A stretch of DNA of 64,000 nucleotides, from contig NZ_FOXI01000005.1 in NCBI RefSeq assembly GCF_900115675.1, forward strand, positions 1 through 64,000, read 5' to 3'. Of this stretch, positions 9,584 to 61,847 are shown in pieces. The stretch is from Halolamina pelagica (GTDB taxonomy: Archaea; Halobacteriota; Halobacteria; Halobacteriales; Haloferacaceae). How positions within the stretch are numbered: position 1 is the first letter of the stretch; each line of letters opens with the position of its first letter. The notes under the pieces were generated by a model that did not search any database, was not told the DNA's origin, and saw only the letters and a list, made by a program, of their open reading frames with translations. Made by a program: the position numbers and the translations under genes.

Positions 9584-9668
9584 CGTCAGTTCACGTTCGA
9601 CCGCCGACAGAAAAACCCACACGAAGTTCGACGGTCGTCGTCGCTTCGTTCCTCGTTCGCAGCAAAAA

Positions 9669-9772
9669 TGCCGCCTCCCCGATTTGAACCTCCGGAAGAC
9701 TTCGCTCCGCTCGTCTTCCGTGCCCCCGCTCGCTCCGCTCGCGGGGAGGGGGACAGCTCGATCTTCAGTCGA
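9669..9772 (-). pseudogene. Broken second copy of the tRNA-Phe 3' half, split by a hairpin insert
   Basis: Two blocks identical to the neighbouring tRNA-Phe gene are present: 9669-9689 (acceptor and T arm from the 3' end) and 9748-9772 (T-stem through the anticodon region). In the intact gene these blocks are contiguous; here 58 bases (9690-9747) separate them. The insert holds two hairpins: arms GGAAGAC/GTCTTCC at 9694-9719, and CCCCGC/GCGGGG at about 9724-9746, both with loops containing TCGCTCCGCTC. The 5' half of the tRNA is missing, so no functional tRNA can be made. Duplicated tRNA 3' ends are a usual trace of integration of mobile elements, but the internal insert is not explained by that. 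Confidence 0.8.
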
Positions 9773-9804
9773 ACCTCACCAATGCAACCCGCGTCGAAAA
9801 GGTA

Positions 9805-9878
9805 TGCCGCCTCCCCGATTTGAACGGGGGACAGCTCGATCTTCAGTCGAGTGCTCTCCCAATCTGAGCTAAGGCGGC
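9805..9878 (-). tRNA. tRNA-Phe (GAA anticodon)
   Basis: A 74-base tRNA on the minus strand. The acceptor stem GCCGCCT pairs with AGGCGGC, the D arm reads GCTCAGATTGGGAGAGC, the anticodon stem CTCGA/TCGAG encloses the loop CTGAAGA (anticodon GAA, Phe), and the T arm is CCCCG-TTCAAAT-CGGGG. The discriminator base is A; CCA is not encoded. No intron is present. A broken copy of its 3' half lies 33 bases away at 9669-9772. Confidence 0.97.
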
Positions 9879-61630: not shown

Positions 61631-61715
61631 GCGCGGGTTGCCGAGCCAGGCCAAAGGCGTAGCGCTTAGGACGCTATCCCGTAGGGGTCCGCCGGTTCGA
61701 ATCCGGTCCCGCGCA
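61631..61715 (+). tRNA. tRNA-Leu (TAG anticodon)
   Basis: An 85-base class II tRNA with acceptor GCGCGGG/CCCGCGC, a D arm with GCCGAGCCAGGCCAAAGGC, anticodon stem TAGCG/CGCTA with loop CTTAGGA (anticodon TAG, Leu), a long variable arm (TCCCGTAGGGGTCC) and T arm GCCGG-TTCGAAT-CCGGT. Discriminator A. No intron and no encoded CCA. A 21-base copy of its 3' end recurs at 61815-61835. Confidence 0.96.
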
Positions 61716-61814
61716 CTGACTGCGTTTTCGAGCGCAGCGAGAAAACGAAGGAGGGAGCAGGAGGATTCCGAACCAGGGAGGTCGCGCACAGCGCAAGCGA
61801 GCACGTCCGACCGT

Positions 61815-61835
61815 GGTTCGAATCCGGTCCCGCGC
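61815..61835 (+). repeat. Displaced copy of the tRNA-Leu 3' end
   Basis: These 21 bases repeat 61694-61714 (T loop through the acceptor 3' strand) exactly, 121 bases downstream. The bases in between hold inverted repeats such as CGTTTTC/GAAAACG around 61730-61757, and no matching 5' tRNA half. It looks like an attachment-type duplicated tRNA end and ends 12 bases before the stop codon of the AI-2E permease gene. Confidence 0.8.
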
Positions 61836-61847
61836 CGCCGTGCCCGT

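Follow-up and report, generated by a model that had tools for sequence, protein, structure and literature searches.

A tRNA-Phe copy split by a conserved double hairpin in Halolamina pelagica, a probable remnant of an integrase attachment site

Archaeal attachment (att) sites at the 3' ends of tRNA genes are well known, with a usual length of 40-50 bp (PMC8371274). Integration is also known to give rise to tRNA fragments (PMC9897764). In such attR remnants and tRNA gene fragments, as at the locus reported here, the 3' part of a tRNA is duplicated downstream while the tRNA itself remains intact (PMC8371274, PMC9897764). Our locus differs from them in that a conserved double hairpin interrupts the fragment, and in that short units bounded by the att core occur in tandem arrays, with about 31 nt of the other element end remaining.

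The integrase of the elements with split attR sites described below shares 43-44% identity, across 98-99% of its length, with the SNJ2-type integrases of the pleolipoviruses SNJ2, HHPV4 and HRPV9, and it has the same two domains as the SNJ2 family (PMC8371274). Integrases have been assigned to the SNJ2 type at an identity of 30% or more across 60% of the protein (PMC8371274). At 43.7% identity over 98% to the SNJ2 integrase, the integrase of these related elements, which lie outside our window, would be classified as SNJ2-type by this sequence measure. The SNJ2 site is very short and is located at the amino-acid attachment end of the tRNA (PMC8371274), whereas the elements considered here have tRNA-Phe as their predicted target and a longer att repeat. 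Also, the annotated attP of the related virus Halfgib1 is located past the 3' end of its integrase gene, whereas attR here is located at the 5' end.

Organelle genomes contain mobile double-hairpin elements, which are compact pairs of hairpins. The insert at our locus resembles these in being a compact hairpin pair placed in tRNA-like sequence. Unlike them, its hairpins are not repeated throughout the genome, have no target duplication, and are tied to integrase attachment sites. In our searches of the open-access literature, we came across neither such arrays of units nor attachment sites split by a conserved folded module. Attachment-site remnants as such are already known.

The tRNA-Phe locus and its 136-nt unit

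The window, by which we mean the entire 64,000-nucleotide stretch that was analyzed, is part of contig 21 of a Halolamina pelagica genome of 3.16 Mb (G000). On the minus strand, tRNA-Phe(GAA) is followed by a 31-nt spacer, a copy of tRNA nt 29-53, a 58-nt insert and a copy of tRNA nt 54-74 (Table 1). The copied blocks are exact direct repeats (9668-9689 equals 9804-9825, 22 nt; 9748-9772 equals 9826-9850, 25 nt) that are contiguous in tRNA-Phe and separated by the insert in the downstream copy. A chance origin of these blocks was ruled out by their exactness and their tRNA order.

A preliminary description of the locus had reported two blocks identical to the tRNA and split by 58 bases, an opening within the T arm, and two hairpins in the insert, and our analysis agrees on each point. 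The split is between tRNA nt 53 and 54, that is, between the 5' strand of the T stem and the T loop. The same description saw a split 3' copy downstream of tRNA-Phe, which is correct as far as it goes, but the duplicate reaches beyond the T arm and acceptor end to include the anticodon loop, and an additional left part of about 31 nt lies between the tRNA and the copy.

The 22-nt core is present at both ends of the unit, next to a tRNA that scores normally. The unit contains no gene, hence no integrase, and for this reason we call it a remnant and not an element. ARAGORN and Rfam searches did not match it to a tRNA or to any Rfam family, and nothing in the window gives a score except the three real tRNAs.

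Table 1. Features of the tRNA-Phe locus (window positions)
Feature	Position	Strand	Evidence
Intact tRNA-Phe(GAA) gene, the integration target (attB/attL)	9805..9878	-	ARAGORN; Rfam RF00005, 61.4 bits
Left arm (~31 nt), matching tRNA-side ends of integrase-bearing elements in register from the tRNA end	9773..9803	-	20/27 identical to G306 element
Duplicate of tRNA-Phe nt 29-53, from the anticodon loop through the 5' strand of the T stem	9748..9772	-	exact 25-nt repeat
Double-hairpin insert (58 nt) splitting the 3'-half copy	9690..9747	-	same module in attR of 9 integrase-bearing elements
Hairpin 1: CCCCGC-GAGC-GGA-GCGA-GCGGGG	9724..9746	-	fold; compensatory changes in 24 homologues
Hairpin 2: CGGAAGAC-GAGC-GGA-GCGAA-GTCTTCCG	9693..9720	-	fold; compensated changes in the outer stem and in the inner GC/GC (to CC/GG)
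Duplicate of tRNA-Phe nt 54-74 and one further base; this shared att core bounds every unit	9668..9689	-	exact 22-nt repeat; delimits 115 units in tRNA-Phe arrays
Start of truncated second unit of the other type (TTTTGCTGCGAACGAGGAACGAAGCGACG, cf. TTTTCCTGCGAACTCGTGAGGGAGCGAAGCGACC)	9631..9667	-	comparison with arrays in other Halolamina

Many other tRNA genes are also followed by a copy of their own 3' end. Counting same-strand copies of a tRNA's own 3' terminus within 250 nt downstream, we found own-specific copies for 12 of 43 tRNA genes in G000, compared with 1 of 1,806 mismatched tRNA pairs; the upstream and the opposite-strand downstream controls gave one copy each. In a genome from another family (G029), the corresponding numbers are 13 of 29 genes and 4 of 812 mismatched pairs. 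Such copies therefore accompany roughly 30-45% of tRNA genes in the two genomes, in both of which the comparison of own with other tRNAs rules out chance.

Distribution and fold of the units

The arrangement is present at tRNA-Phe in four of six other genomes of the genus (complete in G001, G004 and G006, truncated in G003), decayed in G002 and absent from this tRNA in G005. Many haloarchaeal genera have units like that of the window (type I, 133-147 nt) at tRNA-Phe, and these often stand in tandem with units of a second type. Type II units, which occur beside type I or alone, open with a T-rich hairpin, followed by an inverted but imperfect T-arm copy and a further hairpin, and close with tRNA nt 54-74. 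When genomes were scanned for pairs of tRNA-Phe 3' halves spaced 95-124 nt apart, 65 stretches were retrieved, all of them haloarchaeal. Division of the arrays at every core produced 115 units, comprising 27 of type I and 88 of type II. A solo type I unit with an unbroken T arm was sought and not found. Phage records contained no unit and viral contigs no exact tRNA-Phe 3' half, and tRNA and Rfam searches at plasmid and related loci matched tRNAs alone. In the window, a type II unit also follows tRNA-Leu(TAG) (tRNA at 61631-61716, whole locus at 61631-61836), where the final part of the unit, 61815-61835, copies tRNA nt 64-84.

We aligned 24 type I units to compare their structures. Both stems of the insert are preserved, as is the T-stem pairing across it, with nucleotide changes on both sides. 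For example, the stem of hairpin 2 changes in compensated fashion between GGAAGAC/GTCTTCC and GTGAGAC/GTCTCAC, and a T-stem pair across the insert is changed from C-G to G-C in some units. The inner 2-bp stem GC/GC becomes CC/GG around a GNA triloop, and the flanking GA/GA mismatches are kept. The RNA folding energy of the window copy is below that of shuffled sequences (z -2.25), and its DNA folding energy is unremarkable. These two-sided changes in the aligned sequences imply that the folded strand, as DNA or RNA, was under selection or maintained by a palindrome-correcting process. It is plausible that the recombination machinery makes use of the double hairpin as a DNA or RNA fold, and likewise plausible that the double hairpin isolates attP from the tRNA-like fold.

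The loops in all units (for example, window 9693-9746) repeat GAGC-GNA-GCGA, in which N varies and the GA/GA mismatches are constant; this loop motif is common to unrelated haloarchaeal hairpins. A multi-copy structured intergenic element of haloarchaea (L193, L197-L199, L202, L204-L210, L031, L177 and L180) starts near GGACTGAAAGGGGC, ends near AGGGGCTTTC, and contains many GNA-loop hairpins. At the plasmid loci examined, it has no Rfam match, and it has the appearance of an RNA family not yet described.

In 91 of 92 cases, the copies have the same T-stem base as the local tRNA, which would speak for continuing exchange with the tRNA or a recent origin, although shared descent contributes. 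This agreement, the covariation of both stems and the inner stem, the retained loops and mismatches, and the low folding energy as RNA but not as DNA are all properties expected if the unit were a functional structured RNA, transcribed with tRNA-Phe and having a T arm enlarged by two hairpins. However, type I is a minority of the units and is missing from many genomes; the strict unit pattern occurs in 15 of 392 genomes of the order; the order, number and decay of units vary; no tRNA or Rfam family was recognized; and own-tRNA copies are found at many different tRNAs. We therefore regard a functional RNA as improbable.

Split attachment sites beside integrase genes

In four genomes (G028, G032, G039 and G041), elements of 8-20 kb are located between tRNA-Phe and its downstream copy, with a tyrosine integrase adjoining attR; in G039, a 9.9-kb integrase-bearing element lies between tRNA-Phe and a type I-like unit. 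The G032 integrase contains Pfam domains PF00589 and PF02899 and has homologues in 233 of 392 genomes of the order (E <= 1e-90). The integrase start codon is 57-273 nt from attR, the tRNA-Phe 3' half. Within the close clade of this integrase, attR can be read at tRNA-Phe in 19 loci, beside intact integrase genes. In nine, it is split by the double hairpin at nt 53|54 (L211, L212, L213, L214, L215, L218, L222, L223 and L232); in the other ten, one of which (L231) has a degenerate T-stem strand, it is unsplit. The same split is present at tRNA-Tyr beside an integrase that is 59% identical (L233), and at yet another tRNA beside a more distant integrase (L240). Neither viral contigs nor phage records contained a free circular attP with the split, plasmids carried the hairpins without the core, and no copy of the integrase was found in viral contigs.

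These sites bear on several proposals of the preliminary description. It had called for a search for an uninterrupted duplicate, and the contiguous attRs of the ten related elements are duplicates of this kind, possibly in the pre-insertion state. Its argument that plain att duplication is insufficient also stands, in that no split is expected from duplication, and split and contiguous attRs both occur. However, it had interpreted the insert as a sign of a palindromic element that targets tRNA-like DNA, and had named membership in the end of a known integrative element as evidence to the contrary. The double hairpin is indeed within the attR of integrase-bearing elements, and a palindromic element that moves on its own is not supported. 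Moreover, the hairpin 2 pattern, with up to three mismatches, is found in G000 only at the window locus, so the many dispersed copies typical of a mobile double-hairpin element or MITE are not seen there; blastn detected one other hairpin-1-like site. Outside tRNA attachment sites, similar hairpins are isolated structured intergenic sequences, including intergenic double hairpins without a tRNA core on haloarchaeal plasmids.

Split and unsplit states alternate on the integrase tree, with at least four changes, and close relatives can differ in state (L218 split and L220 intact; L215 split and L217 intact). Taken with the plasmid hairpins away from tRNAs, this pattern could be produced by a mobile double-hairpin element that inserted repeatedly, at the same point, into uninterrupted tRNA-Phe attR copies. 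Against such insertion, inspection of 9685-9752 revealed no target-site duplication at the insertion point, hairpin 2 is confined to one place in G000 and to 6 of 59 genomes of the order, and the same pattern can result from deletion between GAGCTGTCCCC blocks of an intact attR and a neighboring solo unit or from exchange of attP modules. Repeated insertion of a mobile hairpin thus seems to us unlikely, if worth keeping in mind. The alternation itself may reflect hairpin insertion, exchange of attP modules, or recombination via GAGCTGTCCCC of an intact attR with a neighboring solo unit, and the double hairpin is either an original part of attP or a repeated insertion. In Halorubrum sp. GN11_10-6_MGM (L155; the same attR appears at L218, G258), the hairpins of attR and of the neighboring solo unit belong to different subfamilies, so local conversion is no explanation for that case.

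Left ends and the origin of solo units

In all genomes with a split attR whose tRNA side was read, an element-type left end is located directly behind tRNA-Phe. The first ~27 nt of solo units match the left ends of most elements position by position, far above shuffled controls. The match persists for nt 12-27 alone, outside the T run, and is lost in registers slid by 1-3 nt; for the type I family overall it is significant relative to both shuffled and slid controls. Both ends of the window unit, left arm and split attR, thus have homologues in living elements at tRNA-Phe. Type II units do not match element left ends. A second family of left ends at tRNA-Phe (L079, L094, L109, L152 and L213), with the sequence AT-ATACTCACAGTTCAAATGCC or similar, points to another family of integrative elements at this site.

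Some arrays also record events of other kinds. In G058 (L097), four tandem type II units follow tRNA-Phe, three of which are 122 nt long and nearly identical, the result of recent local amplification. At L188 (G049:C8:5900-10300), a 3.7-kb element at tRNA-Phe lies between two complete 109-nt type II units; these flanks exceed the tRNA core, as if the type II unit traveled with the element. Amplification as in G058, and the two near-identical tandem units of G010, are the kind of event expected if the units arose by slippage or template switching at the tRNA gene with no integrase involved. However, such a process would leave unexplained the homology with the left ends of elements, the occurrence of an identical split next to integrase genes, and the common architecture at many tRNAs in different families, and we give it very little credence.

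We consider it likely that the window unit is a solo attachment-site remnant, in which the left end of an element is joined to a split attR and the interior, including the integrase, is gone. According to this model, site-specific recombination, catalyzed by an integrase from, or resembling, the haloarchaeal XerC/D-like clade that is still found at tRNA-Phe in relatives, would have placed an integrative element at the 3' end of tRNA-Phe. The tRNA is intact despite the split attR, from which we infer that strands were exchanged within tRNA nt 54-74, the shared core; the exchange would restore the tRNA on one side and place the right end of the element on the other. Many such elements have the conserved double hairpin in their right end, in the interval that separates the core from the integrase start codon, and their attR is thereby split exactly as in the window. 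Later loss of the interior, which we also infer, would have fused about 31 nt of the left end to the split attR.

Several observations complicate the origin of the unit as a remnant, among them the failure to find a free circular split attP in viral contigs, phage records or plasmids. Live split attRs contain approximately nt 42-53 of the tRNA, whereas solo units contain nt 29-53, so nt 29-41 are extra, and simply removing the middle of a present-day element would not yield a solo unit. Also, the left arm is short, and the left ends of the split-attR elements in G219 and G121 are unrelated to the units. All genera have approximately the same junction, which suggests one old event that then spread and not independent losses. 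It is conceivable, although we doubt it, that the core-bounded units (~110-190 nt) are instead non-autonomous mini-elements with both element ends, moved and amplified in trans by tRNA-specific integrases, and that the folded double hairpin is active in the recombination site. If so, haloarchaeal tRNA genes would carry evolving arrays of attachment cassettes that lack genes.

Our results suggest that the arrays of tRNA-derived hairpin units downstream of haloarchaeal tRNA genes preserve, at least partly, a fossil record of past integration; such units should not be annotated as tRNA genes or as free-standing repeats. They also suggest that, in one large integrase family, the attachment site in use is often split by a conserved folded module, and raise the concrete, testable question of how a tyrosine integrase deals with, or exploits, a folded insert in its site.
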